A DNA stretch of 15,586 nt, taken from the NCBI GenBank assembly GCA_027489295.1, contig JAIYAA010000158.1:1-15586 (forward strand). Direction: 5' to 3'. The position numbers were made by a program, and so were the translations under genes. Positions 1 to 15,200 of the stretch are shown in pieces. This DNA is from Sphingomonadales bacterium. GTDB taxonomy: Bacteria > Pseudomonadota > Alphaproteobacteria > Sphingomonadales > Sphingomonadaceae. Position 1 is the first letter of the stretch, and every line of letters begins with the position of its first letter. Below the pieces are notes generated by a model. That model ran no database searches, had not been told where the DNA came from, and saw only the letters and a program-made list of their open reading frames with translations.

Positions 1-945
1 CATCGAACCCGGGATGATCCCCATTGTCCCCTTCGCCGCGCGCACCGCCCCCTTGCGGGTGACCAGCACATTCTCGCCGAAATGGTTCTCGCGCGTCACA
101 TAGTTGTGATGACAGTTCACCGCCTCCAGCTCTGCCTCGAACGGCTTGGCGATCTGCCCGCGCAGGGCGGCGATGACGTTGGTCATCATCATCCGCCGGT
201 TGAGCGCGGCATAGTCCTGCGCCCAGCCGACCGCCTCGACATAGTCGTCGAAATGGTCGGTCCCTTCCGGGAAATAGGCGAGATCCTGATCGGGCAGGTT
301 GATGTGCCATTTGCGCATGTCCTGCTTCGCCAGCTCGATGAAGAACGTGCCGATCGCATTGCCCACGCCGCGTGAGCCCGAATGGAGCATCACCCACACC
401 CGCTGTTCCTGGTCCAGACACAGCTCGATGAAGTGGTTGCCCGTGCCGAGCGTGCCCAGATGGCTGACATTGTTGGTGTTCTTCAGCCGCGGGTACTTGT
501 CGGTGATCCGCTGGAAGCGAGCAGCAAGCGTCGCCCACGCCTCGACGATCGCCGGCGGCGGCGCGCCCCACGAACCGTGGTCGCGCTGCCCGCGGCCGAC
601 CGAGCGGCCGTGCGGCACCGCCTGCTCAATCGCCGCGCGGATGCCCTCCAGATTGTCGGGCAGGTCGCTGGCCATCAGCGAGGTGCGCGCGGCCATCATG
701 CCGCAGCCGATATCGACACCCACCGCCGCCGGGATCACCGCACCCTTAGTCGGGATCACCGAACCCACGGTCGCGCCGATGCCGACATGCACGTCGGGCA
801 TCGCCGCCACGTGGCGAAACACGAACGGCATCTGCGCCGCGCGGGTGAGCTGGGCGCGGGCGCCATCTTCTACCGGCACGCCGCGCGTCCACATCTTGAT
901 CGGCACGCCGCCTTCGACATGCTGATAGTCATAGGTCGTGGTCAT
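1..945 (-). CDS. rtcB: RtcB RNA ligase, 3' end cut by window edge
   Basis: GTP- and Mn2+-dependent ligase that joins RNA 3'-phosphate or 2',3'-cyclic phosphate ends to 5'-OH ends; cytosolic RNA repair. The reading frame is open to the window edge, giving the first 315 residues of a family usually near 400. Visible hallmarks are VGVDIGCGMMA with the metal-binding Asp78 and Cys81, GRGQRDHGSWG near residue 126, NHFIEL, HSGSRGVGN, and RKGA...GIIPGSM at the cut end. The C-terminal part with the guanylylated His (in the SHGAGR-type motif) lies outside. The start is the ATG at 943-945, with a near-perfect Shine-Dalgarno AAGGAGGT 4 nt upstream. It is the last visible gene of the rsr - Y RNA array - rtcB unit; whether rtcA follows cannot be seen. 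Identification is from conserved motifs and is firm. Confidence 0.96.
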   Translation of the reverse strand, partial: MTTTYDYQHVEGGVPIKMWTRGVPVEDGARAQLTRAAQMPFVFRHVAAMPDVHVGIGATVGSVIPTKGAVIPAAVGVDIGCGMMAARTSLMASDLPDNLEGIRAAIEQAVPHGRSVGRGQRDHGSWGAPPPAIVEAWATLAARFQRITDKYPRLKNTNNVSHLGTLGTGNHFIELCLDQEQRVWVMLHSGSRGVGNAIGTFFIELAKQDMRKWHINLPDQDLAYFPEGTDHFDDYVEAVGWAQDYAALNRRMMMTNVIAALRGQIAKPFEAELEAVNCHHNYVTRENHFGENVLVTRKGAVRAAKGTMGIIPGSM

Positions 946-970: not shown

Positions 971-1095
971 GCCGGCGACGAGGCGTGGCGAGACATTTCC
1001 CTGAGCTATCCGGTTTCCCGGAGGCGGAGTCGGACCGCCGACCTCCCGCGTTACCGCGGGCGCTCTGTCCTGTAGTCCCGCCGGCATTCGCCTGC
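971..1095 (-). ncRNA. YrlA-like Y RNA, unit 4 (nearest rtcB)
   Basis: Hand folding on the minus strand gives a terminal helix GCAGGCGA/UCGCCGGC with an A-G mismatch, then the conserved GCGAAUGCC / CUCGUCGCC internal-loop region. A second helix GGCGGGAC (1082-1075) pairs with GUCUCGCC (994-987). The head reads like a permuted tRNA: D-stem 3' strand GAGC (1065-1062), an anticodon-position hairpin CCCGCG-GUAA-CGCGGG (1045-1060), a five-base AGGUC variable loop, T-arm GGCGG-UCCGACU-CCGCC (1023-1039), an abutting acceptor-like hairpin UCCGG-GAAA-CCGGA (1009-1022), UA, and D-stem 5' strand GCUC (1006-1003). The T-loop has C where U55 normally sits, unlike the other three units. Bacterial Y RNAs bind Rsr through the terminal helix. 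RNA ends are inferred from the helix, not mapped. Confidence 0.8.
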
Positions 1096-1109
1096 TGTTC
1101 GTGTTCGGT

Positions 1110-1199
1110 GCTGGCAACAAGGATTGGCGAGACTTCCGGAGTGCTCCGGGGAGGATTCGAACCTCCTGTACCGATGTAGTCCCGCCGGCATTTGCCAGC
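1110..1199 (-). ncRNA. YrlA-like Y RNA, unit 3 (minimal head)
   Basis: This is the shortest unit, 90 nt. Its terminal helix GCUGGCAA/UUGCCAGC is a perfect 8 bp and carries compensatory changes relative to the GCGA/UCGC of other units. The second helix GGCGGGACU (1186-1178) pairs with AGUCUCGCC (1134-1126), 9 bp with one G-U. The head has only a T-arm GGAGG-UUCGAAU-CCUCC (1150-1166) abutting an acceptor-like hairpin CCGGA-GCAC-UCCGG (1136-1149). No D-arm or anticodon arm is visible. It looks like a reduced member of the array that keeps only the T/acceptor coaxial half of the tRNA mimic. It could be a decayed copy, but its helices are intact. Confidence 0.78.
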
Positions 1200-1210
1200 T
1201 TGGTTGTGAT

Positions 1211-1349
1211 CACGGCGACGAGAAGTGGGAAGGACTGCCCCGAAGGGCCGGTGCTCTACCTGGCTGAGCTACTGCGCCTCGCGACCCAGGCGGGATTCGA
1301 ACCCGCGACACCCGCAGTCGCAATGTAGTCCTTTCCGGCATTCGCCGTG
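1211..1349 (-). ncRNA. YrlA-like Y RNA, unit 2 (full D- and T-arms)
   Basis: Terminal helix CACGGCGA/UCGCCGUG is a perfect 8 bp. The second helix is GGAAAGGACU (1336-1327) with AGUCCUUCC (1236-1228); it differs in sequence from the other units yet stays paired, which is covariation, with one bulged A. The head carries T-arm GCGGG-UUCGAAU-CCCGC (1290-1306), an abutting closed acceptor-like hairpin CUG(GGU)CGC-GAG-GCGCAG (1272-1289), UA, a complete D-arm GCUC-AGCCAGGUA-GAGC (1253-1269), then a hairpin GCCC-UUCG-GGGC (1237-1248) where an anticodon arm would begin. The arm order is that of a circularly permuted tRNA opened in the variable region. There is no anticodon loop and no CCA-bearing 3' end. 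Confidence 0.82.
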
Positions 1350-1360
1350 TTGTTCGTGTT

Positions 1361-1507
1361 GAGTCGTGGCGACGAGATCGGCGAGACGCGGCCCTTAAGC
1401 TACGTGTCGGCGGCGGGGTTCGAACCCGCGTCTCCCGCTTGCGCGGGCGCTTTACTCGTCGGGCCTCCTTGGGTGACATGTAGTCCCGCCAGCATTCGCT
1501 ACGACCC
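1361..1507 (-). ncRNA. YrlA-like Y RNA, unit 1 (nearest rsr)
   Basis: It begins 6 nt after the rsr stop codon. Terminal helix GGGUCGU-A-GCGA/UCGC-C-ACGACUC has 11 pairs around an A-C mismatch, reminiscent of the interrupted Ro-binding helix of Y RNAs. The second helix is GGCGGGAC (1490-1483) with GUCUCGCC (1387-1380). The head has D-stem 3' strand AAGC (1452-1449), hairpin CCCGC-GCAA-GCGGG (1434-1447), T-arm GCGGG-UUCGAAC-CCCGC (1413-1429), a very short acceptor remnant (1403-1412, only 2 bp), UA, then D-stem 5' strand GCUU (1400-1397). The AAGC/GCUU pair replaces GAGC/GCUC of unit 4, which supports the pairing by covariation. Confidence 0.8.
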
Positions 1508-1513
1508 TGTTCG

Positions 1514-3061
1514 TTACACCTCCACTGCCTCGACGATGCTCACCCAGTCGCACGTCTCGCCGGCGGCGAAGCGTGCGATCCCGTCGAACACCGCATCGGA
1601 GAAGCCCCCGATGTTGAGGATGTCCGCCCGGCTTTGCGCCTGGGTCGTGCCGTATGGCGCGATGTCGATGCAGACGAGCTTCGCGCCCGGGCAGCGCTGC
1701 TTCAGCCGATCCCATTCGCGCAGCGTCGCCGTGGCGCCACTCCGCGTCGCATCGACCCAGGACTGGTTGTCCGAGACGATCACGACCAGATCGACCTTCT
1801 CGCCGAGCATGTTGAGCAAGGCGAGCGGCGCCGAGACATTGGTGCCGCCCCCGCCCACCGCCGCGAGCTTCGCGGCATTCACCGTGACGCGCGCCTTGGG
1901 ATCGAGCTTGAGCTTCACCACGCCCTGTTCGAACGGCAGCACCCGGGCATCGCGGTTGGTCCGCAGCATCGCCGCCGCGACCAAGGCGGCGACATCGATG
2001 CAGCGCACCTTCGACGAAGCACCCTTGCGAACACCCGTCGCCGGCGAGGCCATCGACCCCGACACGTCGGGGCAGACGACCACCCGGCCCGCCACCGCCG
2101 GCACGCGGGCCAGCGATTGCTCGAGCGCATCTTCCAGCGCTGCCTGGACAGTGAGCGGCACGGTCTCGTCCGCCGCCGCCAGCGCCATCTGGAGCTGGTA
2201 CGGCATCGGCTTGGCCCGGGCGATCGCAGCCGGATCGCGCAGCCGTTCGGCCACCCGCGCCGTCACGCCTTCCACGTCGAACGCCCCCTTGCGCGCCAGC
2301 GTGTTGAGGTTCATCCGCAGCGCCTGCCAGCCCATCGAAGCGGCAAGCTCGGCCCATTGTCCGGCCGACAGCTCGAAGGCGGTCAGCCATTCGAACGGCA
2401 CCGGCGGCAGTGGCCGCGAACGATCCGCCTTCCACGCCTCGAACGCGGCGATCTCCGCCGGCAGCGCAGCCACGTCATAGGGCTTGCCGATCAGCCAGCC
2501 GTAAAAGGCGCGCCGTTCGGCGTCCGCCGGCTTGGGGTGCACCATCCTGACGATGTCCGCCAGGCTGGGATCCTTGCCCGTCGCCGCGGCCATCAGGTCG
2601 CGGATCGAGGCGCGTTCCAGCCAGCCCTGCACCAGCCGCTTCGGCCGCGAACCGAGCGACGTCCGCCCGACCTGGCCGGAGCGCAGGATCTGGACATAGC
2701 TGCGCAGCATCCGGCCGGTGTCGATGACGCGCCCGAAGACGCGCACCGCCAGGTCCGGATCGGCCACGGTGAGATAGGCCGCGAGCAGCGCCGGCATGTC
2801 CTTCATCGCACCCGAACGGCGGGCATAGACCGCCGCCTTGGCGACGAAGCCCGGATCGCACGCCTGGGCGGCGGCGATCACGTCGGAAAGCTGCGCCTCG
2901 GCGGTTGCGTAGAAGGTTTCGCTGAGGGTGCCGGTCACGGCAAACTGGGCGAGCTTCGCCTGCGGGCCATAGGCATAGGCCGGGGCGCCTTCATGGTTGC
3001 GCGTATCGGCTGCCGGAAGCAGCTTCGCGATCGCCGAGGCGAAAAGACCCTTGTTTGCCAT
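1514..3061 (-). CDS. rsr: Rsr, Ro60-like TROVE/vWA RNA-binding protein
   Basis: Bacterial ortholog of the Ro60 autoantigen: a ring-shaped HEAT-repeat protein that binds Y RNAs and the ends of misfolded or damaged RNA. The product is 515 residues, close to the family's ~530. The TROVE part covers roughly residues 1-330, starting MANKGLFAS..., with KDMPALLAAYL and TLARKGAF segments. A vWA-like domain follows, with the MIDAS motif DVSGS (after VVVCP) and a later VIVSDNQSW strand. I chose the ATG at 3059-3061, not the in-frame ATG at 3182-3184, because the latter lies in the sigma-54 promoter and the upstream residues are not family-like; AGGAAGGA and GAAGG precede the chosen start. It is the first gene of the unit, followed after 6 nt by the Y RNA array and then rtcB, as in the enterobacterial rsr-yrl-rtc arrangement. 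Confidence 0.93.
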   Translation of the reverse strand: MANKGLFASAIAKLLPAADTRNHEGAPAYAYGPQAKLAQFAVTGTLSETFYATAEAQLSDVIAAAQACDPGFVAKAAVYARRSGAMKDMPALLAAYLTVADPDLAVRVFGRVIDTGRMLRSYVQILRSGQVGRTSLGSRPKRLVQGWLERASIRDLMAAATGKDPSLADIVRMVHPKPADAERRAFYGWLIGKPYDVAALPAEIAAFEAWKADRSRPLPPVPFEWLTAFELSAGQWAELAASMGWQALRMNLNTLARKGAFDVEGVTARVAERLRDPAAIARAKPMPYQLQMALAAADETVPLTVQAALEDALEQSLARVPAVAGRVVVCPDVSGSMASPATGVRKGASSKVRCIDVAALVAAAMLRTNRDARVLPFEQGVVKLKLDPKARVTVNAAKLAAVGGGGTNVSAPLALLNMLGEKVDLVVIVSDNQSWVDATRSGATATLREWDRLKQRCPGAKLVCIDIAPYGTTQAQSRADILNIGGFSDAVFDGIARFAAGETCDWVSIVEAVEV

Positions 3062-3087
3062 TGCCTTCGATCCTTCCTGCGGATCCT

Positions 3088-3115
3088 GGGGCGGCCAGCC
3101 CATTCCGGCCGCCCC
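3088..3115 (-). other. Stable hairpin in rsr 5' leader
   Basis: The minus strand reads GGGGCGGCC, a 10-nt loop, then GGCCGCCCC, a perfect 9-bp GC-rich stem lying 26 nt upstream of the rsr start codon and downstream of the predicted sigma-54 start site. Two GGATCC sextets (3081-3086 and 3132-3137) flank it and could extend the fold. There is no U-tract, so a simple terminator is unlikely. A leader structure affecting rsr translation or mRNA stability is possible. Confidence 0.6.
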
Positions 3116-3167
3116 GTTCTTCCGCACCATCGGATCCAGGAAGCGCCCGATCCGATGCCATCTACTT

Positions 3168-3183
3168 TGCAGAAGGCGTGCCA
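3168..3183 (-). promoter_or_regulatory. Sigma-54 promoter of the rsr-Y RNA-rtcB unit
   Basis: The minus strand reads TGGCACG-CCTT-CTGCA, matching TGGCACG-N4-TTGC with one change. The invariant GG (3182-3181) and GC (3170-3169) are exactly 12 nt apart. Transcription would start near 3157, leaving a leader of about 95 nt. An extra TGGCACG occurs 10 nt upstream (3193-3187) without a matching -12 element. The divergent gene encodes RtcR, the sigma-54 activator known to drive rtc operons, so context supports the call strongly. Confidence 0.88.
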
Positions 3184-3315
3184 AGTCGTGCCAGCGGGGC
3201 AGAGGAATTTCACATCGATCTGAGATTACACAGCTTTTCTTGCTGCGATATCAGTTTTTCGAGAATGCCAGCGAAAGACTACCTCGGCAAAACACGATCG
3301 CGTTGGATCGCATCT

Positions 3316-3329
3316 TATCCTATAGGATA
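3316..3329. promoter_or_regulatory. Perfect 14-bp palindrome at the rtcR start
   Basis: TATCCTATAGGATA is its own reverse complement and ends 3 nt before the rtcR ATG. It contains the likely Shine-Dalgarno AGGA (3324-3327). It could be a protein operator or a small mRNA hairpin hiding the ribosome site; either would tune RtcR level. Function is inference. Confidence 0.5.
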
Positions 3330-3332
3330 CGC

Positions 3333-4931
3333 ATGAAACCGCTCACTGTTATCGGCTTTCTCGGCTCTACGCTCGATGCGAGCAAGTTCGGCCCCTCCCG
3401 CTGGAGCAAGTGGCGCCCCACCGTTGCGCTGGCCATGCACGAGGATCTGCGGATCGACCGGCTGATCCTGATCCATGGCTCGCAGCATCGCCGGCTTGCG
3501 GAGTATGTCGCGGAAGATGTGGTCTCGGTGTCCCCCGAAACGACGGTCGATCTGCGCGTGCTCGATTTCCGCGACGCGTGGGATTTCGAGGAAGTGTACG
3601 GCAAGCTGCTCGACTTCGCGCGGGCCGAGCCGTTCGACCCCGAGGCGGAGGACTATCTCGTCCATATCACCACGGGCACGCACGGCGCGCAGGTCTGCCT
3701 CTTCCTGCTCGCTGAAGCGCGCTCTCTCCCGGGCCGGCTGCTCCAGACCCAGCCCGCCAGGCGCGGCGAGGATGGCGGCGCGCCGGGGCGCTGGACCACG
3801 ATCGATCTCGACCTGTCGCGCTACGACAGCATCGCCACGCGCTTCGCCGTCGCCGCGCAGGAGAGCACGTCGTTCCTCAAATCGGGTATCGACACGCGCA
3901 ACCCCGCCTTCAACCGGATGATCGACGAGATCGAGCAGGTGGCATCGCGCTCCAAGGCGCCGATCCTGCTCACCGGCCCCACCGGCGCGGGCAAGAGCCA
4001 GCTGGCGCGGCGCATCTACGAACTGAAGCGGCTGAAGCACCAGATCGCCGGTCCGTTCGTCGAGGTGAACTGCGCGACGTTGAAAGGCGACAGCGCGATG
4101 TCTGCGCTGTTCGGGCACCGCAAGGGCGCGTTCACCGGAGCCGTCGCGGATCGGCCGGGGCTGCTCCGCGCCGCCGACAAGGGCATGCTGTTCCTCGACG
4201 AGATCGGCGAACTGGGTGTCGACGAACAGGCGATGATCCTGCGCGCGATTGAGGACAAGCGCTTCCTCCCCGTCGGCTCGGATCGCGAGGCGGCGTCCGA
4301 CTTCCAGCTGATCGCCGGCACCAACCGAGATCTGGGCGCGGCGGTGGCGACGGGCGGCTTCCGCGACGATCTCTATGCCCGCCTCAACCTGTGGACCTTC
4401 CAGCTGCCGGGCCTCGCCGACCGCCGGGAGGATATCGAACCCAATCTCGATTATGAACTCGATCGCCACGCCGAGCGCGAGGGCAATCGGGTGAGTTTCA
4501 ACAAGGAAGCTCGCCAGCGCTACCTAAGCTTCGCCACCGCTCCGGATGCGCATTGGCCGGGCAATTTCCGCGACCTTGCCGCAAGCGTCACCCGAATGGC
4601 CACGCTCAGCCCCAAGGGGCGGATCGACACCGACACCGTCCAAGCGGAGCTCCACCGGCTCGGGCGCCTGTGGTCCGGGCGGGATCAGAACGAAGACGAC
4701 ATTCTGGCAGAGGTGCTGACGCCGGCGGCGCTAGCAGAAATCGACCCCTTCGACCGCGTGCAGCTCGCCGCGGTGGTGGATACCTGCCGCCGGAGCCGCT
4801 CGCTCTCCGAGGCCGGGCGGACGTTGTTCGCCGCATCCCGGACACGCAGAACATCCGCCAATGATGCCGATCGGCTGCGAAAATATCTGGCGCGGTTCGC
4901 GCTGGATTGGTCCACCCTCACCCGACGCTGA
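3333..4931 (+). CDS. rtcR: RtcR, CARF-domain sigma-54 activator of RNA repair
   Basis: Transcription activator of rtc operons. Its length, 532 residues, is that of the enterobacterial protein. The N-terminal ~180 residues form the RtcR/CARF ligand-sensing domain, opening MKPLTVIGFLGSTLDAS, with HITTGTHGAQV near residue 110. The AAA+ domain follows: Walker A GPTGAGKS (215-222), the sigma-54 contact loop GAFTGA (265-270) and Walker B MLFLDE (285-290). The C-terminal end is a helical DNA-binding region. The ATG at 3333 has AGGA 5 nt upstream; the longer in-frame ORF upstream lacks family sequence. In Salmonella the CARF domain senses tRNA fragments with 2',3'-cyclic phosphate ends; applying that here is inference. 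It is divergent from rsr with 271 bp between starts. Confidence 0.95.
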   Translation: MKPLTVIGFLGSTLDASKFGPSRWSKWRPTVALAMHEDLRIDRLILIHGSQHRRLAEYVAEDVVSVSPETTVDLRVLDFRDAWDFEEVYGKLLDFARAEPFDPEAEDYLVHITTGTHGAQVCLFLLAEARSLPGRLLQTQPARRGEDGGAPGRWTTIDLDLSRYDSIATRFAVAAQESTSFLKSGIDTRNPAFNRMIDEIEQVASRSKAPILLTGPTGAGKSQLARRIYELKRLKHQIAGPFVEVNCATLKGDSAMSALFGHRKGAFTGAVADRPGLLRAADKGMLFLDEIGELGVDEQAMILRAIEDKRFLPVGSDREAASDFQLIAGTNRDLGAAVATGGFRDDLYARLNLWTFQLPGLADRREDIEPNLDYELDRHAEREGNRVSFNKEARQRYLSFATAPDAHWPGNFRDLAASVTRMATLSPKGRIDTDTVQAELHRLGRLWSGRDQNEDDILAEVLTPAALAEIDPFDRVQLAAVVDTCRRSRSLSEAGRTLFAASRTRRTSANDADRLRKYLARFALDWSTLTRR

Positions 4932-5225
4932 TCCGGGCTTCAGAGGACTGCACACGATGCACGCGAGTCGGCGCGAATGCGTTAGAAGCCGAACTTCCCT
5001 ATGATCCGAGTGCCCAACGCTTTCGCCGCGCGCGCGAGTTACCGAACAGCGGAGATTGCCATCCATTCTACGGGCACTGGGTCCACAAGGGCTTCGTCGC
5101 GCAGGGGGCGTGCCTTTGGCGCCCGCGCTTGCCGGTTGCGGTTTCACAGCTGAGCGCAACGTTCCCCAACAGACACTAGTTCGCTGGAGCACTGGCTCAT
5201 AGCCTGTCCAGACTGGAGAGCCACC
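4932..5225. other. Gene-poor gap after rtcR
   Basis: 294 bp with no recognised gene. One plus-strand frame stays open for 90 codons (4907-5179), but it starts inside rtcR, has rarer codons such as TTA, and resembles no family I know. A short imperfect hairpin around 5106-5127 (GGGCG ... CGCCC) lacks a T-tract. I see no convincing terminator, tRNA or promoter. Confidence 0.5.
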
Positions 5226-5633
5226 ATGTCCGATGAAGCTGACGCCCCCTTCCACCTCCGGGCGCTTGATCACCTCGTGCTGCGGGTCGCTGACATCGAG
5301 CGGAGCATAAACTTCTATTGCGACGTCATCGGCTGCACGGTCGATCGGCGACGTCCGGAATATGATCTCGTGCACCTGCGAGCGGGCACGGCGATGCTCG
5401 ATCTCGTCCGCCACGAAGGAGGCGCATCGGCTGGCGACAATGTCGACCATTTCTGCCTGCAGATCGCGCCGTTCAATGAGGCCGCGCTTCTCGCGCACCT
5501 CGCGAAACGAGGCGTACGCACCGAGCCGCCGATTGCGCAGCGTTATGGCGCGCAGGGCACGGGGCGATCGCTGTATCTTCGCGATCCCGACGGTAATCGC
5601 GTCGAACTCAAGGAAGCGCTTCAGGCGGAGTAG
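5226..5633 (+). CDS. Glyoxalase/VOC-fold small metalloprotein
   Basis: A 135-residue protein of the vicinal oxygen chelate superfamily (glyoxalase I, fosfomycin-resistance and extradiol dioxygenase fold). Two beta-alpha-beta-beta-beta modules are visible. The first begins LRALDHLVLRVADIERSINFY, with candidate metal ligand His16. The second has VDHFCLQI (a second His) and ends YLRDPDGNRVELKE, with the usual Glu ligand. The start ATG has GGAG about 8 nt upstream. The substrate cannot be told; this subgroup includes many stand-alone enzymes. It is flanked by the rtcR gap, and its last 13 bp overlap the end of the convergent MFS gene. Confidence 0.85.
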   Translation: MSDEADAPFHLRALDHLVLRVADIERSINFYCDVIGCTVDRRRPEYDLVHLRAGTAMLDLVRHEGGASAGDNVDHFCLQIAPFNEAALLAHLAKRGVRTEPPIAQRYGAQGTGRSLYLRDPDGNRVELKEALQAE

Positions 5634-7024
5634 ATGCGGGCAGGCAGTCGCGCTGCCAGCGCGGCCCCGGCAGCCAGCAATGCAAGGATAATCGCTGCGG
5701 AGGGGACAAGGCTGCGGGAGTCCGCCAGCCCGAAAAAGGCAGCGCCTACCAGCGCGATGCCGGCCACCCCGCCCATTTGCTGCACGGTCTTGACGATCCC
5801 GCTGGCCGCGCCGGCATCGGCGCGGTCGACCCGCGCCAGGATCAGCGGCGTGGCGGGTCCGCTGCTCATTCCCATGCCGACGCCTGCTGCCAGCAGCGTC
5901 GGCAACAACAGGCCCAGCGGCAAGCCGCCGACTTCGATCCAGGCGAGCGATGCCGTCGCGCAGAGCGCCAGCAGGCCATAGCCGACAACCAGGATCCATT
6001 TTTCCGCGCGCCGCGCCAGGCGACGGCCGATGACGCCCATTCCGAGCATGACCCCGACGCTGAACGGCATGTGGATCAGCCCGGTTTCGAACGGCGAGAA
6101 GTGCGCGATCCGCTGCAGCGCATAGGCGAACAGGAACAGGAAGCCTGTGTTTGCGGCCGAGAACAGCAAGAGCAACAGGATGCCGACGCGAAACACGCGG
6201 TTGGCAAGCAGATGCGGCGGAAACAGCACGGCGCCTCCCCGCGCCGCCCGCCGCCGCAGGCCCAGCCATGCCCCGAACAGCAACGGGACACCCGCGATCA
6301 ACAGCGCGAGCGACGCCCCCTGCAGCCCCCCCTTCTCCGCCTGCAACAGCGGGAACAGCAACGCCAGAAGGGCAGCGCCGAAGCCGAGCGTGCCGAGCAG
6401 GTCGATGCGGGTCGCGGCATTGCCGCGGCTGCGCGGCAGCAGCCACCAGCCGGCAAGCAGCGCGACAAGGCCGATCGGCCCGTTGATCAGGAACACCGTG
6501 CGCCAGCCGAGCCCGCCAATGTCCGCGGCGATCAGGAAACCGCCCAGAATCGGCCCGGCGATCGACGAGAGGCCGCCGATCACGCCGAACCAGGCAAGCC
6601 GCCCGATCCGCTCGACCGGCGTATAGAGCTGCTGGATCACCGCCAGCACCTGCGGCGCCATCAACGCCCCCGCCGCCCCCTGCAGCACCCGCGCGACGAT
6701 CAGCAGGGTGCCGCTCGCCGCGAGGCCACAGCCGATCGATGCGGCGGTGAAGCCACCCACGCCGATCAGGAAGAGCGTCCGACTGCCGAACAGGTCGCCC
6801 AGCCGGCCGGAGAGCATCAGCAGCAGCGCATAGGGCAGCACATAGCCCGCCACCACCCACTGGGCGAAGGCGCCCGACCCGCCGAACTCAGCCTGGATCG
6901 AGGGGAGCGCGGTGTTGACGATCGTCACGTCGACGATCTCCAGCACCAATGCGATGATCAGCGTGAAGAAAGCGAGGCTCTTCTGCCGATCGCTCAGATG
7001 GGCAGGATCAGAGCTTGCCGGCAC
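5621..7024 (-). CDS. DHA2-type MFS transporter
   Basis: A 467-residue inner-membrane major facilitator with many hydrophobic helices, likely 14 as in the EmrB/QacA (DHA2) group. The first helix region has LEIVDVTIVNTALPSIQAEF, typical of that group. GRLGDLFGSRTLF is motif A, RVLQGAAGALMAPQVLAVI is motif B, and GPILGGFL is motif C of drug:H+ antiporters. It starts at GTG (7024-7022), inside the 3' end of the GMC gene (17-nt overlap), so it is probably translationally coupled and last in the receptor-oxidoreductase operon. That placement suggests export or exchange of a substrate or product of the oxidation pathway; classic drug efflux is the alternative. Confidence 0.88.
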   Translation of the reverse strand: MPASSDPAHLSDRQKSLAFFTLIIALVLEIVDVTIVNTALPSIQAEFGGSGAFAQWVVAGYVLPYALLLMLSGRLGDLFGSRTLFLIGVGGFTAASIGCGLAASGTLLIVARVLQGAAGALMAPQVLAVIQQLYTPVERIGRLAWFGVIGGLSSIAGPILGGFLIAADIGGLGWRTVFLINGPIGLVALLAGWWLLPRSRGNAATRIDLLGTLGFGAALLALLFPLLQAEKGGLQGASLALLIAGVPLLFGAWLGLRRRAARGGAVLFPPHLLANRVFRVGILLLLLFSAANTGFLFLFAYALQRIAHFSPFETGLIHMPFSVGVMLGMGVIGRRLARRAEKWILVVGYGLLALCATASLAWIEVGGLPLGLLLPTLLAAGVGMGMSSGPATPLILARVDRADAGAASGIVKTVQQMGGVAGIALVGAAFFGLADSRSLVPSAAIILALLAAGAALAARLPARIYSA

Positions 7025-8708
7025 GCAGCTGCTCGACGGCGTAGGAACAGGCCCGCGCGGTGAGCGCCATATAGGTGAGCGACGGGTTCTGGCAGGCCGA
7101 CGAACTCATCTGCGCGCCATCGGTGACGAAGAGATTGGAAATGGCATGCGCCTGGCTGAACCGGTTGAGCACCGAGGTGGCCGGATCCCAGCCCATCCGC
7201 GCGCCGCCCATCTCGTGGATCGCGGTGCCGCCCGGTCCCGGCCGGTCGAAGCCGAGGATGACATGGCCGCCGGCAGCGGTGAGCATCTCGGAAGCATCGG
7301 CCTTCGCCTGGGCAAGGGCGGCCTGCTCCTCCTTGCCGAAGGCGAAGGCCACGTTGAGCTGGGGGATGCCGCGATCGTCGGTCTTGACCGGATCGAGGGT
7401 CAGCCGGTTGGTCGCGCGGGGCACGCAATCGGCAAAGCCGACCAGCACCATCTTCCACGGGCCGACCTGGCGCAGCTTCGCCTTGTAGTCCGCGCCGATG
7501 CCGGCCTCGCGCTTGCCCGCCGTCCAGGTCGATTGCAGCGCGCCCCCCTGGAAGGAGAAGCCGCGCGTGTGGCCAGTGCCGTCCATCACGTCCATGTTGC
7601 GGTAGCGGGGTACGATGACGCCGGTCGGGCGATTGCCGAAGCTGGTGTGCGCCTCGAACCCCGGCATGATCGCCATCGCCGACAGCGTATTGGCATGGTC
7701 CATGATATGGGTGCCGAGCACGCCGCTTGCGTTCGCCAGGCCGTGCGGCATCGCCTCGCTCGCCGAGTTGAGCAGGAGGTGCACCGAGTTGAACGCACCG
7801 GCATTGAGGAACACGATCCGTGCCGATGCCGAGCGCCGCCGGTTCGAGGCGGTATCGATCCAGCGCACCCCGGTGACGCGCCGGGTGACGGGATCATAGT
7901 CGATCTTCTCCACGACCGCGTCGGTGACCAGCGTCAGCCGGCCGGTCTTCTGCGCGGCGGGCAGCGTCGAGGACTGGGTGGAGAAATAGGCGCCGTAGGA
8001 GCAGCCGCGCGCGCAGATGCTGCGATACTGGCAGTGGGCCCTGCCCTCCTCCGGTTTTGCTTCGGTGAGGTTGGCGGTGCGGCCGATCGTCAGGCATCGG
8101 CCGGGGAATTTCTCCGCCAGCACGCCGCGGACATGCTGTTCGACCGCGTTCAGCGCCATCGGCGGCTGGAACTTGCCGTCGGGCAGCTGCTTCAGCCCCT
8201 CCGCTGCGCCGGAGACACCGATGAAGCTCTCGACATGATCATACCAGGGCGCGAGATCGGCATAACGGATCGGCCAGTCGGTGCCGTGCCCGTCGCGCTT
8301 GTTGGCGCCGAAATCATAGTCCGACCAGCGATAGGATTGCCGCCCCCAGGTGAGCGACCGTCCGCCGAGCTGATAGCTGCGGAACCAGGTGAAATCGGTG
8401 CCCTCGGCGGTGGCGTAGGGGTTCTCGCGGTCGTTGACGAAATGGCCTTCGGTGAACTCGGTGAAGTGCCGGTTGAGCATCTGCACCGGATAGTCCTGGC
8501 GGTACCGCGCCGTGTCGCCGATACCGCGGAACGGCATTTCCCACGGCGCCTTTGTCTCGGTCTCGTAGTCCTGCTGGTGGCGGATGTTGCGGCCCCGCTC
8601 GACCATCAGCACGCGCAGGCCTGCCTCGGTCAGTTCCTTGGCCGCCCAGCCGCCGGTGATGCCGGAGCCAACCACGAACGCATCGAATTGCATCGCCTCC
8701 CCCGCCAT
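7008..8708 (-). CDS. GMC-family FAD oxidoreductase (sugar dehydrogenase large subunit)
   Basis: A 566-residue FAD enzyme of the glucose-methanol-choline family, in the branch with the gluconate 2-dehydrogenase and glucoside 3-dehydrogenase catalytic subunits. The N-terminal dinucleotide motif GSGITGG (14-20) and VERG (Glu37) bind FAD. HEMGGARMG begins near His498. The C-terminal QNPSLTYMALTARA block (Asn541) matches the family end, and the His/Asn pair is the expected catalytic set. A Cys-rich CQYRSICARGC segment sits mid-protein. It has no signal of its own; it would be exported folded with the Tat-signal partner encoded just upstream. The start ATG overlaps that gene's stop as TGATG. Expected to oxidise a ring hydroxyl of a sugar, often C3, in the periplasm; the exact substrate is unknown. 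Confidence 0.9.
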   Translation of the reverse strand: MAGEAMQFDAFVVGSGITGGWAAKELTEAGLRVLMVERGRNIRHQQDYETETKAPWEMPFRGIGDTARYRQDYPVQMLNRHFTEFTEGHFVNDRENPYATAEGTDFTWFRSYQLGGRSLTWGRQSYRWSDYDFGANKRDGHGTDWPIRYADLAPWYDHVESFIGVSGAAEGLKQLPDGKFQPPMALNAVEQHVRGVLAEKFPGRCLTIGRTANLTEAKPEEGRAHCQYRSICARGCSYGAYFSTQSSTLPAAQKTGRLTLVTDAVVEKIDYDPVTRRVTGVRWIDTASNRRRSASARIVFLNAGAFNSVHLLLNSASEAMPHGLANASGVLGTHIMDHANTLSAMAIMPGFEAHTSFGNRPTGVIVPRYRNMDVMDGTGHTRGFSFQGGALQSTWTAGKREAGIGADYKAKLRQVGPWKMVLVGFADCVPRATNRLTLDPVKTDDRGIPQLNVAFAFGKEEQAALAQAKADASEMLTAAGGHVILGFDRPGPGGTAIHEMGGARMGWDPATSVLNRFSQAHAISNLFVTDGAQMSSSACQNPSLTYMALTARACSYAVEQLRAGKL

Positions 8709-9340
8709 CAGCCGAAATCCACCGCGGTCCAGTCGCTGGACCAGGCGTGCATGGCCGGTGTGAGCGGCAGGTCCGGATCCCAGCGGCCGGGCACGAGTTC
8801 GTAGTTGAGTTCCTTCGATCCGCCGACTTCGGAGGTGTAATAGCCGGTAAGGATCAGGCCCTTGATCGTTCGCCAGGGATGGGATCGCGCCCCCTCGGCA
8901 TAGGCCTCACCGTCCAGCGCCTGGAGCGCCGCGAGCCGCCGGGCGGGGTCGGCCTTCTGGAAATCGCCGGCGGCGCGCTGGTCGAGCTGCGTCTCCAGCC
9001 AGTCGAGATGGCGCAGCGAACCGTCGCGCCGCCGGTAGCTGGCGAGGTTGGGCATCGCGTCGGCGGCGGCGGGCGTGCGGGATCCCTCCAGCCCATGGGC
9101 AAGCGCGAGGATAACGAAATCGCCGACGCGGATATCGCCCGCCCCGGCCGTGTCGGTGCGGGGAAGTACCAGCTGCGAAACGCCGGCGATCATCACGCGC
9201 TGGCGGTCGCTCGGCTCGTCCGAGGGGTCGAGATCGGAATAGCGGACCACCGCCGTGGGCACACCCACCGCAAGCGCGAGCAACGCCGCGCCGCCGAAGA
9301 AATCGCGGCGGCTCCACCCCGCCGCCTGTCGCTCCGCCAT
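8708..9340 (-). CDS. Gluconate 2-dehydrogenase subunit 3-like protein with Tat signal
   Basis: A 210-residue small subunit. A twin-arginine signal, SRRDFFGG at residues 10-17, is followed by a hydrophobic stretch ALLALAVG. The mature part has the family's QRVMIAGVSQLVLPRTDTAGA segment and a C-terminal GYYTSEVGG...W region. Such subunits carry their GMC partner through the Tat system and aid activity. The start ATG is preceded by AGAGAGGA. It sits 59 nt after the TonB-dependent receptor stop and is coupled to the GMC gene by a 1-nt overlap. Confidence 0.88.
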   Translation of the reverse strand: MAERQAAGWSRRDFFGGAALLALAVGVPTAVVRYSDLDPSDEPSDRQRVMIAGVSQLVLPRTDTAGAGDIRVGDFVILALAHGLEGSRTPAAADAMPNLASYRRRDGSLRHLDWLETQLDQRAAGDFQKADPARRLAALQALDGEAYAEGARSHPWRTIKGLILTGYYTSEVGGSKELNYELVPGRWDPDLPLTPAMHAWSSDWTAVDFG

Positions 9341-9370
9341 CCTCGATCCTCTCTTGCGCGTACAGGGTTC

Positions 9371-9393
9371 GGGGCGACACGCAGTGCCGCCCC
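9371..9393 (-). other. Intercistronic stem-loop between receptor and oxidoreductase genes
   Basis: The minus strand reads GGGGCGGCAC-UGC-GUGUCGCCCC, a 10-bp stem with one G-U and a 3-nt loop. It lies 6 nt after the receptor stop. No T-run follows, so it is more likely an mRNA 3'-end stabiliser or partial terminator, letting the receptor be made in excess over the downstream enzymes. Confidence 0.65.
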
Positions 9394-9399
9394 GCCCGA

Positions 9400-11703
9400 T
9401 CAGAAATCGATGCCGAGACGAACGCCGTAGGTCCGCGGCGGCGTGAACTGCCAGTTGTAGATGTTCGCCACCCCCGGCACCACGGTGTTGCCGGCATAGG
9501 CGATCAGGCGATAATTCTCGATGTTCCGCACGAACGCCTGCACGCTGTAATGCTTGTTGGCCGGCTTGTACTCGAGGCTGAAGTCGCTCTGGGTGTGCCC
9601 GATCTGCTTCGAGTCATTGTAGTTGTAGAAGTCGAGATAATAGTTGCCCTTGTAGCGCGAATAGGCCGAGGCCGTGATCGTGCCGGCGCCGCCCAGATCG
9701 AACAAATGGTCCCAGCCGACCGATACGATCGCGTTCGGTGCCTGCGGCAGGCGGTTGCCGCCCAGCTCCAAGGTCTGCGGTGTCGTCGGCACGACGCCGT
9801 TGGTGAAGGCCGCCACGCTCGCCTGAAACTTGCGATAGGTGGCGTGCATCAGGTTCACTGCGATCGACACGGTGTCCGCGCGCGACGGGTGGAGATTGGC
9901 CTCGGCCTCGACGCCGTAGATCTTCGCGCTCCCGGCGTTGAAGGTCTGCGCACCCACGGCCGGGTTGAGCAGCACGTCGTTCTGCAGGTCCTTGTAATCG
10001 TAGTAGAAGCCGGCGACGTTGAACGTGTTGTTGCCCGAGAAGCGCAGCTTGGCGCCGCCTTCATACGCGGTGTTGTTCTCCGGGTTGAACGTCTTGCCGG
10101 TACCGTCGAAGCCGCCCGCCTTGTAGCCGGTCGAGACCTTCGCATAGAGCAGCGTATCGGCATTGGGCTTGTAGTTGAGGCCCGCCAGCCAGGTGAACTT
10201 GCTCCCCGAATAGTGCAGCGGGGTGCTGGCGGAGGGCTGGTTGGTCAGCTCGATCGGACCACTATTGAACGCGAAGAAATAGTTGGTGAAGGTGGCGCTG
10301 CGCACGTCATGCGTGTAGCGCGCGCCGCCGACGGCCGTGAGCTGGGTGGTGAGCGGCACTTCCACCTGCGCGAAGCCCGACACGCTTTCGCTAAGCGTCG
10401 GATGGCGGAAATAGTTCACATAGGAGCCGTTGGGGCCGATGAACGGGCTGTACAGGCCGCCATTGGTGTTCTGCTTCTCGCGGAAATAGAAGGCGCCGGT
10501 CTGCCACTCGATGCCGTGGACGTTGCCGTTCAGGCGCAGCTCGTGGCTCTGGGTCTTCACCCGCCCGCCGAAATTCGTGAAGACGAAGGCGGGCGACAGC
10601 GTGTTCGCGCCATTGTTCTTGGTGGTGCGATAGCCGCCGGTATAGGTCAGTGTCGCCGGGCCGAAATCATAGGCGATACGGGCGCGCGCCGCGGTCGAGA
10701 TCTGGTGAAGCGAACCCACGCCGATCAGCGGCGAGGCATAGTTGCTGCGATCGATCTTCGACAGCGTATTGGTGTTCTTCGGCACGCAGCCGACGCCGCC
10801 CGCCACGGCATAGGCGACCGCCCAGCCATTGGCGCAGCTGGTGGTGCTCGATCCCGGATTGTTCGCAGCGCTGGCCATGTCCTGCCAGGCCTGGGCGGCC
10901 GGGATCAGCGTCTGCTCGACATGCTCCACCGCCGCGTCGACGGTGAAGCCCGCCGCCGGCTTCAGGCGAAGGCTCACGCGGCCGCCGCCGGTATTGTCGG
11001 TATCGCTCTCTGCCGTCTTGCTGGGCGTGAAGGCCGAGGTGGGGCTGAACGGCGTGTTCGGATGCGTGGTGTAGCCGTCATGCGAGCGGTAGAAGCCGGC
11101 GACGCGGACCCCGCCGACATCGCCCAGCGGCACATCGACGCCGCCGTCCACCAGCACCTGGTTGAAATTGCCATAGCTGGCCGTGCCGTTGACCGCGAAG
11201 CTGTCGCCGGGCTTGCGGGTGATGAAGTTCACCGCGCCGCCCGTGGAGTTGCGGCCGTACAGCGTGCCCTGCGGCCCGCGCAGCACCTCCACGCGATCCA
11301 GGTCGAAGATCGCGGCGTTCAAGATGGTCGGGCGGTTGATATATTCGCCGTCGATATTGACCGCGATCGACTGGTCCTGCGCCTCGTTGTTGGTCAGCGA
11401 GCCGACGCCGCGCACCGAGACGCGGGTATTGTTGGTGTCGTTGGTCACCTGCAGCGCGGGCGAGACCTTCTGCACCGAGGTGAAGTCGGTAACGCCCTTG
11501 TCCTTCAGCGCATCGCCCGAGATCACCGAGATCGCGATCGGCACGTTCTGGACGCTCTGCGCGCGGTTTTGCGCGGTGACGATGATCTCGTCGGTGAGCT
11601 GCGCATTGCCCTGCGGTGCGGCGGGCGCCGTCTGCGCCTGCGCCACCCCGCCCGCCAGCGCACTGGCGCTCGCCATCAGCACGAGCACGGTCCTGCCGTT
11701 CAT
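9400..11703 (-). CDS. TonB-dependent outer-membrane receptor
   Basis: A 767-residue outer-membrane active transporter. The signal peptide MNGRTVLVLMASASALAGG...AQA is followed by a TonB-box-like DEIIVTAQ. The plug domain has NVPIAISVISGDAL, RGVGSL and VEVLRGPQGTLYGRNSTGGAVNFI. The 22-strand barrel ends in YGVRLGIDF, with the terminal Phe expected for BAM-mediated insertion. A longer in-frame reading extends upstream to 12150, but the signal peptide fixes the start at the ATG 11701-11703, preceded by GGGAGAG. It heads the minus-strand operon with the Tat subunit, GMC oxidoreductase and MFS gene, so it probably imports the glycoside they process. The divergent partner is the sugar isomerase operon; both have a candidate operator in the 230-bp gap. 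Confidence 0.93.
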   Translation of the reverse strand: MNGRTVLVLMASASALAGGVAQAQTAPAAPQGNAQLTDEIIVTAQNRAQSVQNVPIAISVISGDALKDKGVTDFTSVQKVSPALQVTNDTNNTRVSVRGVGSLTNNEAQDQSIAVNIDGEYINRPTILNAAIFDLDRVEVLRGPQGTLYGRNSTGGAVNFITRKPGDSFAVNGTASYGNFNQVLVDGGVDVPLGDVGGVRVAGFYRSHDGYTTHPNTPFSPTSAFTPSKTAESDTDNTGGGRVSLRLKPAAGFTVDAAVEHVEQTLIPAAQAWQDMASAANNPGSSTTSCANGWAVAYAVAGGVGCVPKNTNTLSKIDRSNYASPLIGVGSLHQISTAARARIAYDFGPATLTYTGGYRTTKNNGANTLSPAFVFTNFGGRVKTQSHELRLNGNVHGIEWQTGAFYFREKQNTNGGLYSPFIGPNGSYVNYFRHPTLSESVSGFAQVEVPLTTQLTAVGGARYTHDVRSATFTNYFFAFNSGPIELTNQPSASTPLHYSGSKFTWLAGLNYKPNADTLLYAKVSTGYKAGGFDGTGKTFNPENNTAYEGGAKLRFSGNNTFNVAGFYYDYKDLQNDVLLNPAVGAQTFNAGSAKIYGVEAEANLHPSRADTVSIAVNLMHATYRKFQASVAAFTNGVVPTTPQTLELGGNRLPQAPNAIVSVGWDHLFDLGGAGTITASAYSRYKGNYYLDFYNYNDSKQIGHTQSDFSLEYKPANKHYSVQAFVRNIENYRLIAYAGNTVVPGVANIYNWQFTPPRTYGVRLGIDF

Positions 11704-11743
11704 GATCTCTCTCCCGCTCTCGGCGGCTTTGTGCCACCTGAAG

Positions 11744-11759
11744 TAAAATATGCGTTCTA
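11744..11759. promoter_or_regulatory. Candidate operator, copy 1 (receptor side)
   Basis: TAAAA-TATGCG-TTCTA is an inverted repeat with one mismatch in the left arm relative to (T/A)AGAA-N6-TTCTA. It lies 40 bp upstream of the receptor ATG. A minus-strand TTGACA (11787-11782) lies 22 bp upstream of it, so the site would sit near a promoter -10/start region and could block it. The -10 itself is poor, so the promoter is tentative. Confidence 0.5.
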
Positions 11760-11841
11760 AAAAATCGCGTCTGCAGATCCTTGTCAAGCGGATTCGAATG
11801 GCCGTTCGCAATACCGTAAAATTGCATTGACAACGGTCAAA

Positions 11842-11857
11842 AAGAATCATTGTTCTA
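11842..11857. promoter_or_regulatory. Candidate operator, copy 2 (isomerase side)
   Basis: AAGAA-TCATTG-TTCTA, with AGAA/TTCT arms, lies 76 bp upstream of the isomerase-like gene. A plus-strand TTGACA (11827-11832) starts 15 bp before it, so the site would overlap a -10 region. It differs from copy 3 at only two positions, both in the spacer. Confidence 0.6.
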
Positions 11858-11933
11858 ATACGGAAACGTCGCCACCTTGCGGCGGCGGGAGCACGTCCGA
11901 GCCAAGGAGACGTGCCGGTCCGGAGAGGATGCC

Positions 11934-12701
11934 ATGCTTCTGTCCCCCTGCATCGAATGGATGTTTGCCGATGCGCATGCCGATATGGGCGATCGCATCC
12001 GCGCCGCGGCTGCGGCGGGTTATCCGGCCGGCGAGTTTCATTTGTGGCGCGACAAGAACCTGGAATCGGTGGCGGCCGCGCTGCGCGAGACCGGCAGCAC
12101 GCTGACCGGGGCCTGCGTCGATCCGCGTCGCAGCCTGGTCGATCCGGCACAGCAGGACGAATTTGCCCAGGCGGTAGAGGAGAGCCTTGCCGCCGCGAAG
12201 ACGATCGGCTCGCCGCCGATGATCATTGCCTCCGGCTTCACCCGCGAGGGCGTCAGCGAGGAGGAACATTTCGCCGCAGCCGTCGCCGCGCTCAAGCGCG
12301 CTGCCGCACTGGCGGAGGCAGCCGACGTGATGCTGGTGCTCGAGCCGCTCAACGACCGCGTCGAGCATCCCGGCATGTGGCTGGTCTCGACGACCAAGGG
12401 GCTCGACCTGGTCGAGGCCGTGGGCAGCACGCATCTGCGGCTGCTCTACGACGTCTATCACTCGCAGGTGATGGGCGAGGATATGGCGGAGGTGCTGCGC
12501 GGGCGCATCCATCTCGTCCACCATGTCCAGGTCGCCGACCTGCCCGGCCGCAACGAGCCTGGCACCGGCACCATCGACTGGGATGGGGCAATGCAGAAGC
12601 TGCGCGACCTCGGCTACACCGGCGCCATCGGACTGGAGTACCGCCCCACCCTGCCCCCCGCCGAGTCGCTGGCCGCGACCCGTGCGGCGCTCGGGCTCTG
12701 A
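11934..12701 (+). CDS. Hydroxypyruvate isomerase-like TIM-barrel sugar isomerase
   Basis: A 255-residue protein of the AP-endonuclease-2-type TIM barrel (Hyi/sugar isomerase-epimerase) superfamily, close to the ~258 of hydroxypyruvate isomerase. It opens with CIEWMFAD, typical of Hyi-like proteins. The metal and catalytic set is visible: LEPLND (Glu137), LLYDVYH (Asp173), HHVQVAD (Gln199) and GLEY (Glu235). The start ATG has GGAGAGGA 5 nt upstream; a longer in-frame start at 11877 has no family sequence. It is first of a plus-strand operon, 7 nt from the GPH symporter. In this context it may isomerise or open a keto-sugar rather than hydroxypyruvate; that is inference. Confidence 0.88.
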   Translation: MLLSPCIEWMFADAHADMGDRIRAAAAAGYPAGEFHLWRDKNLESVAAALRETGSTLTGACVDPRRSLVDPAQQDEFAQAVEESLAAAKTIGSPPMIIASGFTREGVSEEEHFAAAVAALKRAAALAEAADVMLVLEPLNDRVEHPGMWLVSTTKGLDLVEAVGSTHLRLLYDVYHSQVMGEDMAEVLRGRIHLVHHVQVADLPGRNEPGTGTIDWDGAMQKLRDLGYTGAIGLEYRPTLPPAESLAATRAALGL

Positions 12702-12708
12702 GGGCGGC

Positions 12709-14046: not shown

Positions 14047-14072
14047 GCCTAGACACGCAAGGGAGAGGGATC

Positions 14073-15026: not shown

Positions 15027-15063
15027 GTCCTGCCCCGTTGCGTCGGGCTTAAAATCACGATAG

Positions 15064-15079
15064 AAGAATCAATATTCTA
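15064..15079. promoter_or_regulatory. Candidate operator, copy 3
   Basis: AAGAA-TCAATA-TTCTA, an inverted repeat in the 174-bp gap after the ThuA-like gene, 121 bp upstream of the next start codon. A weak promoter-like TTGCGT - 17 bp - TAGAAG (15038-15066) runs into it. Near-identity to copy 2, including the following A, suggests a common regulator and a separate transcription unit from here. Confidence 0.58.
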
Positions 15080-15200
15080 ATTAGGGTCGAACGACCCCAG
15101 GGGAGAGGTTACAAGCGGCGCGGCACCTGCCGCCCGTCCGGGTCTCGCCACCTCCCCCGCTTCACCGAAGTGCACCCGAAAAGTTGAAGAGGTGAATGCG

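Follow-up and report, generated by a model that had tools for sequence, protein, structure and literature searches.

Tandem Y RNAs beside a Sphingomonadales rsr gene carry predicted tRNA-like modules of more than one permutation

A 15,586-nt stretch of DNA from a Sphingomonadales bacterium (assembly GCA_027489295.1, contig JAIYAA010000158.1; hereafter the window) carries on its minus strand, in this order, rsr, four bacterial Y RNA units (U1, U2, U3, and U4), and rtcB. The units are present at positions 970–1504, as the initial annotation had proposed when it placed four tandem Y RNAs between the two genes. Based on their sequences and on alignments with related loci, U1 to U4 are predicted to be tandem Y RNAs that share one Ro-type stem and bear different tRNA-like modules. 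U2 is assigned to the circular permutation of tRNA known from YrlA RNAs, U1 and U4 to a second permutation that is opened in the D loop, and U3 to a minimal piece made of a T arm and an acceptor-like hairpin.

The rsr gene (1514–3061, minus strand, with its ATG at 3061; some analyses used 1514–3064, which is one extra codon) encodes a Ro60 orthologue. We classify the product as a Ro60-type protein from its vWA domain, which exceeds the cut-off of the vWA_Ro60 model. The TROVE domain falls slightly under the Pfam cut-off (22.3 versus 23 bits), and the NCBIfam Rsr model gives 75.2 bits, far under its equivalog cut-off of 900. The start of rtcB lies at 928–945 (minus strand, with the ATG at 945 and AAGGAGG just before it), and the edge of the window cuts the gene. 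The Pfam RtcB domain (PF01139) covers residues 49–332 of the long open reading frame (ORF), and a longer rtcB ORF that starts at 996 and overlaps U4 is unlikely. Divergent from rsr is rtcR (3333–4931, plus strand; ATG chosen by eye within an ORF at 2997–4931), whose product matches RtcR (PF06956) and Sigma54_activat and scores over the cut-off of the NCBIfam RtcR equivalog. A sigma-54 promoter-like site, TGGCACGCCTTCTGCA (3168–3183, minus strand), is located about 120 nt upstream of the rsr start codon and was recognized by pattern match only. A loose version of the pattern occurs in 66 of 77 rsr upstream regions versus 29 of 80 control windows within rsr. Thus, the locus has the rtcB gene, the divergent rtcR gene, and, by pattern only, the sigma-54 promoter of an RtcR-controlled RNA repair operon.

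All four units have the basal two-helix stem with a conserved internal loop that typifies Y RNAs, and all lie beside the rsr/Ro60 gene. The internal-loop strands are AAUGC and CUCG or CUUG. Helix 2 is formed by GGCGGGAC/GUCUCGCC in U1, U3, and U4, and by GGAAAGGACU/AGUCCUUCC in U2, while the terminal helix is GCGA/UCGC in U1, U2, and U4, and GCAA/UUGC in U3. Both of these paired changes had been quoted in the initial annotation as a sign of selected RNA structure. That account also gave every unit the same plan, which is true of the Ro-binding stem; beyond it, U1 and U4 are opened in the D loop and U3 is reduced.

The units, all on the minus strand, differ in what the stem carries. U1 (141 nt, 1364–1504) joins the Ro-binding helices to a D-loop-opened module with a lengthened D arm and a probable pseudoknotted acceptor stem. 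In U2 (141 nt, 1210–1350), which is YrlA-like, the Ro stem replaces the anticodon arm, and the remaining elements are a T arm (1290–1306), a complete D arm (1253–1269), an extra hairpin GCCCUUCGGGGC (1237–1248), and an acceptor hairpin. In U3 (92 nt, 1109–1200), the helices are predicted by folding to carry only GGUA (1165–1172), a T arm (1150–1166), and an acceptor-like hairpin (1136–1149). U4 (127 nt, 970–1096) combines helices 1 and 2 with a D-loop-opened, circularly permuted tRNA module. Helix 1 of U1 contains an A.C mismatch (window position 1500) where the close relative L022 pairs G with C, and this may be a recent change.

The Rfam YrlA model (RF02553) aligns end to end with all four units, with scores of 52.1 bits for U2, 47.5 for U3, 27.6 for U4, and 18.6 for U1 (E-values of 8.3e-11 to 0.4, the last being that of U1). 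A default Rfam scan of the window reported none of them, because all four score under the RF02553 gathering score of 69. The proposal that these are YrlA-type RNAs of an rsr operon is borne out in part: they are tandem bacterial Y RNAs in an rsr-rtcB operon that the YrlA model aligns over their full length, but the topology of YrlA, a permutation at the anticodon arm with a complete D arm, is found in U2 only, and the model passes over the D-arm positions of U3 and U4. ARAGORN found no tRNA gene in the window, and the units do not form a normal-order cloverleaf with an anticodon, their order being permuted.

Related loci were collected by a scan with an Rsr alignment, which yielded 80 loci, or 81 rsr loci when the window is added. 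A pattern-based unit finder identified 297 units in these loci, of which 291 that lie no more than 1500 nt from rsr were kept, and units were detected at 78 of the 81 loci. Among the other three, L091 and L098 end in rsr, and L099 has flanking sequence with no pattern match. The finder ignored the 3′ strand of helix 2 and used only the last two bases of its 5′ strand. The two strands pair at 7.41 of 8 positions within a unit versus 6.36 of 8 when a strand is matched with other units of the same array (874 pairings), and the maximum in 200 shuffles was 6.51 (291 units, 78 loci). This difference, together with the ARAGORN result, supports the initial view that the units are selected RNA structures and not decayed tRNAs.

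Two units were detected in 12 of the 78 arrays (window included), three in 17, four in 29, and five in 20. These sizes are lower bounds, since gaps in some arrays reveal missed units. Because 29 of 78 arrays have four units and 20 have five, an array of four is normal in this clade, and the description of the window as an expanded four-member set does not hold. The rsr gene itself is sparse, being found in 21 of 397 genomes of the family, 7 of 385 of the class, and 10 of 398 of the phylum. Given that all units carry the same type of stem and that the near genome G001 has one rsr match, it is likely that a single Rsr protein serves all four. Five loci include short Y RNAs (78–89 nt) that lack a T arm (L059:5242-5320, L061:5199-5277, L068:5144-5232, L084:5072-5160, and L087:5247-5324) and that have in common a CCUxUxACGAUG stretch after ACUAC.

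In the D-loop permutation, as read from the alignments, the Ro stem enters via the D loop, each end of the module contributes one half of the split D stem, and an anticodon-like arm is retained. From 5′ to 3′, U4 comprises a GG that resembles G18G19 followed by the 3′ half of the split D stem (GGACAGAGC, 1062–1070), an anticodon-arm-like hairpin CCCGCG-GUAA-CGCGGG (1045–1060) with a GNRA loop and no anticodon, a T arm (1023–1039), a loop-closed acceptor-like hairpin (1009–1022), and a segment with UA, the 5′ half of the split D stem, and A14 G15 (UAGCUCAG, 1001–1008). These assignments, all on the minus strand, derive from an alignment called A2, which contains 36 of 39 units of this type, window U4 included (L079, L086, and L101 were omitted, and L076 was extended by 12 nt). 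The retained A14, G15, GG at 18–19, and five-base variable stretch ending in C, all seen in A2, would support the usual tertiary contacts of tRNA, judging from what is known of tRNA itself.

When RNAalifold was applied to A2 with no structure supplied, it returned helices 1 and 2, the split D stem, the anticodon-like arm, the T arm, and the acceptor-like hairpin. With this structure plus one acceptor pair, 97.6% of the cells are paired and two-sided changes occur in 18 of 35 pairs, a result reached in 0 of 500 shuffles; for the anticodon-like arm, such changes are seen in every one of the 5 modelled pairs. All 34 distinct rows of A2 have a paired split D stem. A second alignment, A3, holds 47 of 49 units of the unit-1 type, window U1 included (L087 and L093 were omitted), and has two-sided changes in 20 of 39 pairs. 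All 47 of its rows pair the split D stem, the top pair being A-U in 39, G-C in 7, and G-U in 1. Changes to or from the GCUC/GAGC form of this stem, whether gains or losses, map at least three times to well supported branches in a tree of 49 Rsr proteins. Other D-loop units have D stems of the form GCGC/GCGC (two units), GCGG/ACGC (five units, which are Leu-like, with three pairs and a G.A), and GUUC/GAAC (two units, L094 and L097, taken by eye from a loose and noisy scan for split D stems). A tighter scan located no 5′ half in 10 of 52 rows. Overall, the check in related genomes that had been suggested for the window revealed strong covariation, in A2, in A3, in helix 2, and in the tree-based comparisons.

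The 49 unit-1-type and 39 unit-4-type RNAs are drawn from 89 units of the D-loop class; unit 4 of L071 (196 nt) was left out and is probably two merged units. Minimum-energy folding of the 89 gave an anticodon-like arm with a GNRA loop in 52, a UUCG loop in 2, and other loops in 35. Because only one of the 89 loops is 7 nt long, these RNAs keep the arm but mostly have no decoding loop. D-loop units also occur outside Alphaproteobacteria, in L100 (Methylibium) and in L187 (another class of the same phylum). In L035 (3287–3428), L100 (5572–5715), L187, L189, and L190, we observed Y RNAs that resemble a tRNA-Leu opened in the D loop, with GGUAGACGC before and UGGCGGA after, and a long variable arm was recognized by eye in those of L035, L100, L189, and L190. 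A reading of U1 and U4 as class II forms with a long variable arm was rejected, as the hairpin that precedes the T arm occupies the anticodon-arm site and a short variable stretch comes after it.

U1 shares this topology, with the 3′ half of its split D stem, AAGC (1449–1452), pairing with GCUU (1397–1400), an anticodon-arm-like hairpin CCCGC-GCAA-GCGGG (1434–1447), and a T arm (1413–1429), the last two placed from A3 and all on the minus strand. Its D arm is lengthened by GGCCC (1461–1465, minus strand), which pairs with GGGCC (1390–1394). In other units, this extension changes to GGUCC/GGACC, the variable pair being C-G in 22, U-A in 20, A-U in 3, and U-G in 2. The two sides agree in 46 of 49 rows and are concordant in 5.8 of 6 independent pairs on average.

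In place of an acceptor hairpin, U1 has a stretch following ACUAC that is complementary to bases lying between its T arm and UA-D stem, which suggests a pairing of UGUC (1475–1478) with GACA (1405–1408), both on the minus strand and proposed on the basis of complementarity and tree tests. Because this pairing crosses the D-arm helices it would be a pseudoknot, and we conclude from the sequence comparisons that the acceptor stem of U1 is probably closed in this manner. The complementary strands in unit-1-type RNAs include UGUC/GACA, UCC(A)/(U)GGA, UCCC/GGGA, and UGGC/GCCA, and the strands pair better with their own partners than in any of 5000 re-pairings. In a control in which positions of the 3′ strand were scrambled while relatedness was kept, the observed contrast was reached in 1 of 400 trials and the raw pairing score in 8 of 400. 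The GUC/GAC contrast agrees in 49 of 49 rows over 7 changes, and in 6 of 6 independent pairs (p 0.031). Turnip yellow mosaic virus has a tRNA-like structure in which a pseudoknot completes the acceptor stem. The proposed U1 pseudoknot may resemble that acceptor, although its position and role are unrelated.

To compare the modules with tRNAs independently of any fixed order, each unit was aligned to doubled copies of 41 distinct G001 tRNA genes, which allows any permutation to align, and 60 shuffles were made per unit. Sorted by pattern, the 291 units comprise 98 of the YrlA class (a T arm and then a complete D arm), 89 of the D-loop class (a T arm preceded by the 3′ half of the D stem and followed by its 5′ half), 74 with a T arm only, 24 with no T arm, and 6 others; by the same patterns, 55 of 78 arrays hold both YrlA-class and D-loop-class units. 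The best of the 60 shuffles was exceeded by 98 of 98 YrlA-class units, 79 of 89 D-loop units, 31 of 74 T-arm-only units, and 1 of 24 units without a T arm. The alignments end most often at tRNA position 33–35 in the YrlA class (31 of 98) and at 15–17 in the D-loop class (28 of 79). Permuted order is strongly favored over normal order in the YrlA class (median scores of 72.1 versus 48.0), and U4 has a clear preference as well (58.4 versus 47.2). The alignment of U2 begins at tRNA position 41 and ends at position 44 of the second copy. In L034:5501-5638, L046:5352-5492, L061:5384-5512, and L062:5072-5213, the D arm of a Y RNA resembles that of tRNA-Glu (GUCGUCUAG...GGAC) when compared by eye with G001 tRNAs, as if different units had copied different tRNAs.

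A covariance model of the D-loop form, R1, was built from A2. It scores window U4 at 140.3 bits, although U4 is in its training set. Six D-loop units that belong to other families and were held out score 100.2 (L101), 95.2 (L190), 89.4 (L191), 81.8 (L189), 79.2 (L097), and 74.2 bits (L094). For the three of these six in L189 to L191, RF02553 gives 30.8 bits with L189 and no match at E ≤ 0.01 with L190 and L191. Conversely, the YrlA-class unit L191:3256-3368 scores 92.5 bits with RF02553 versus 29.0 with R1. A scan of 385 genomes of the class returned R1 matches at E ≤ 0.001 in 172. The weak matches are tRNA genes, some of them tandem, at 15 of 15 loci examined (of 25 weak-hit loci that were retrieved), whereas, among the matches listed, those of at least 45 bits fall in five genomes, four of which have Rsr at 1e-20. 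The fifth genome, G533 (83% complete), has a single Y RNA that resembles unit 3 (L152:1501-1592) before an rtcB-like start, and no Rsr match.

Several results weigh against the D-loop permutation and the proposed pseudoknot. In A2, the split D stem is almost constant, one pair being G-C in 33 rows and G-U in 1 and the other three being fixed; consequently, its support from covariation is drawn from the unit-1 set and from other clades. In the unit-1 set, the tree test of this stem found 3 of 4 independent pairs concordant and 1 of 4 with no difference (p 0.25), which falls short of significance because there are too few independent pairs, and the Rsr tree is a stand-in for the history of arrays that may recombine. 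On A3, RNAalifold predicted the Ro helices, a 3-base-pair anticodon-like arm, and a 4-base-pair T arm without the split D stem. The sorting into classes rests on our own patterns, 10 of 89 D-loop units and 43 of 74 T-arm-only units fail to beat the best of 60 shuffles, and D-loop alignments have scattered starts (34 of 79 at positions 3–5 and 16 of 79 at 15–20), in part because the alignment extends into the Ro stem. The median gain from permutation is small in the D-loop class (50.8 permuted versus 45.1 in normal order) and only slight for U1 (47.5 versus 45.3). The margin between the two covariance models can also be small, as the YrlA-class unit L190:1025-1154 scores 47.0 bits with RF02553 and 45.2 with R1, about 2 bits apart. 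For the pseudoknot, the UCC/GGA contrast gives less support (42 of 49 rows, median p 0.125), the sequences had been seen before the motif classes were named, and only 72% of cells pair in MAFFT columns, because the register shifts by one base between groups.

Despite these points, we consider it quite probable that the locus as a whole is best explained as four Y RNAs that present different tRNA permutations on one Ro stem in an RNA-repair operon of the RtcR/sigma-54 type, a reading based on comparison of sequences. In Salmonella, RtcR drives the operon rsr-yrlBA-rtcBA (PMC9879122), and its signal is an RNA end with a 2′,3′-cyclic phosphate, predicted to come from cleaved tRNA (PMC9879122, PMC7790460). 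By analogy with that work, such ends from cleaved tRNAs would switch on RtcR and thereby the operon, and the four units would be transcribed together. The Y RNAs would be excised from the transcript and would then dock on Rsr. An RNA opened at the anticodon would leave the elbow and acceptor free, and one opened at the D loop would leave the anticodon arm and acceptor free. Because the Ro stem exits the tRNA fold at two different places, the tRNA body would be held in different orientations. We speculate that the units jointly tether or titrate several tRNA-binding proteins, such as PNPase and tRNA-modifying or tRNA-cutting enzymes, near Rsr during tRNA repair or removal.

A serious rival, which we regard as possible but distinctly less probable, is that the tRNA-like modules act chiefly as decoys or inhibitors of a tRNA-cutting nuclease whose products induce the operon, with Rsr a mere carrier. 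RtcR activation parallels tRNA fragments, YrlA has been suggested as a possible competitive nuclease inhibitor (PMC7790460), and D-loop members retain an anticodon-like stem. However, their 7-nt loop is mostly gone, and with it the feature that anticodon nucleases read, and the Ro stem is retained in every unit. It is improbable that all four units are ordinary YrlA RNAs with one fold, with the D-loop permutation arising as alignment noise in fast-evolving inserts. The end-to-end RF02553 matches and the common T arm and acceptor-like elements would fit such an interpretation, but it is disfavored by the covariation of the split D stem, by the D-arm positions that RF02553 omits in U3 and U4, and by the separation of held-out members by the two models, though this is only 2 bits for L190:1025-1154.

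Two further explanations are very improbable. Decayed or spurious tRNA genes, in which the end of one tandem gene and the start of the next are read as a permuted tRNA, would account for the weak matches of ordinary tRNA genes to the D-loop model (15 of 15 examined), and tandem genes may be the origin of the permutation, but the window has no tRNA gene, covarying Ro-type helices bound every unit, and the arm loops of D-loop units are GNRA (52 of 89) or UUCG (2 of 89) with a 7-nt loop in 1 of 89. Equally doubtful is the possibility that some units are RtcB substrates or products, for example circularized ones; rtcB adjoins the units and permuted tRNA genes with D-loop or anticodon-loop junctions exist in algae and archaea (PMC3978253), but no maturation of U4 to a linear tRNA is expected, because a loop joins its acceptor strands.

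Several known systems are close to the preferred reading, in which the units are Y RNAs with differently permuted tRNA modules. YrlA (RF02553; structure 6CU1, cited in PMC8394870 and PMC11472068) shares with the window units the place beside rsr, the two-helix Ro stem, the T arm, and the acceptor-like hairpin, and with U2 the same permutation, in which a complete D arm follows the acceptor hairpin. In contrast to YrlA, the window units all score under the gathering score, U1 and U4 are opened in the D loop, U3 lacks a D arm, and U1 has a probable pseudoknot. The Salmonella rsr-yrlBA-rtcBA operon (PMC9879122) has the same order of rsr, Y RNAs, and rtcB, a divergent rtcR, and a sigma-54 promoter-like site before rsr, but contains two Y RNAs where the window has four. 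YrlA is modified by tRNA enzymes, and PNPase is bound by Rsr and YrlA (PMC8394870, PMC9879122). The Deinococcus complex of Rsr, Y RNA, and PNPase, called RYPER (PMC4726728, PMC8394870), offers by analogy a model for a Y RNA that tethers Ro to a partner. Permuted tRNA genes of algae and archaea mature to working tRNAs (PMC3978253), whereas the window units have a loop-closed or pseudoknotted acceptor and have mostly lost the anticodon loop.

That Y RNAs occur beside rsr and that YrlA is a circular permutation of tRNA (PMC11472068) is already known. A literature search of limited coverage turned up no description of a Y RNA opened in the D loop, a second permutation, or the pseudoknot. The broader proposal, for which we see about even odds, is that Y RNA arrays are tRNA mimics made by several circular permutations (at the anticodon arm, in the D loop, and in a D-loop form whose acceptor is pseudoknotted), by which one Ro shows several tRNA faces to different proteins during RNA repair, and that the D-loop class, with its Leu-like members that bear a long variable arm, has not been described before. 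Chen in 2014 reportedly noted a likeness to tRNA in at least one Y RNA of each species, in which case the others would still be undescribed. If the proposal is correct, at least two different re-cuttings of the tRNA fold have served to attach a tRNA body to the Ro ring, and Y RNAs beyond the known YrlA type are also tRNA mimics. The role of Ro and Y RNAs in RNA repair would become testable, as each orientation predicts which tRNA-binding proteins reach the mimic. Library searches would miss such RNAs because the Rfam model holds one permutation only.

A coding function for the unit region was considered and rejected. Minus-strand ORFs of 94 and 89 amino acids cross the units, and the length differences of homologous units are not multiples of three. 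These small ORFs, at window positions 1210–1479 and 929–1213, resemble the spurious peptides often predicted over tRNA genes.

By Rsr, the closest named relatives of the window are Sphingomonas sp. S2M10 (96% identical) and S. azotifigens and Sphingomonas sp. TDK1 (95%). In L022, the nearest of the named relatives, the operon order is rsr, Y RNAs, rtcB, rlaP, and rtcA, where an RlaP gene (PF10127, RNA repair pathway DNA polymerase beta family; L022:6887-7678) lies between rtcB and rtcA. For the window's own operon, rtcA would lie beyond the window edge. On the other side of the locus, at window positions 5000–15586, ORFs named by eye include a glyoxalase-type protein, an MFS transporter, an oxidoreductase pair, a TonB-type receptor, sugar-isomerase-type proteins, and a ThuA-like protein.

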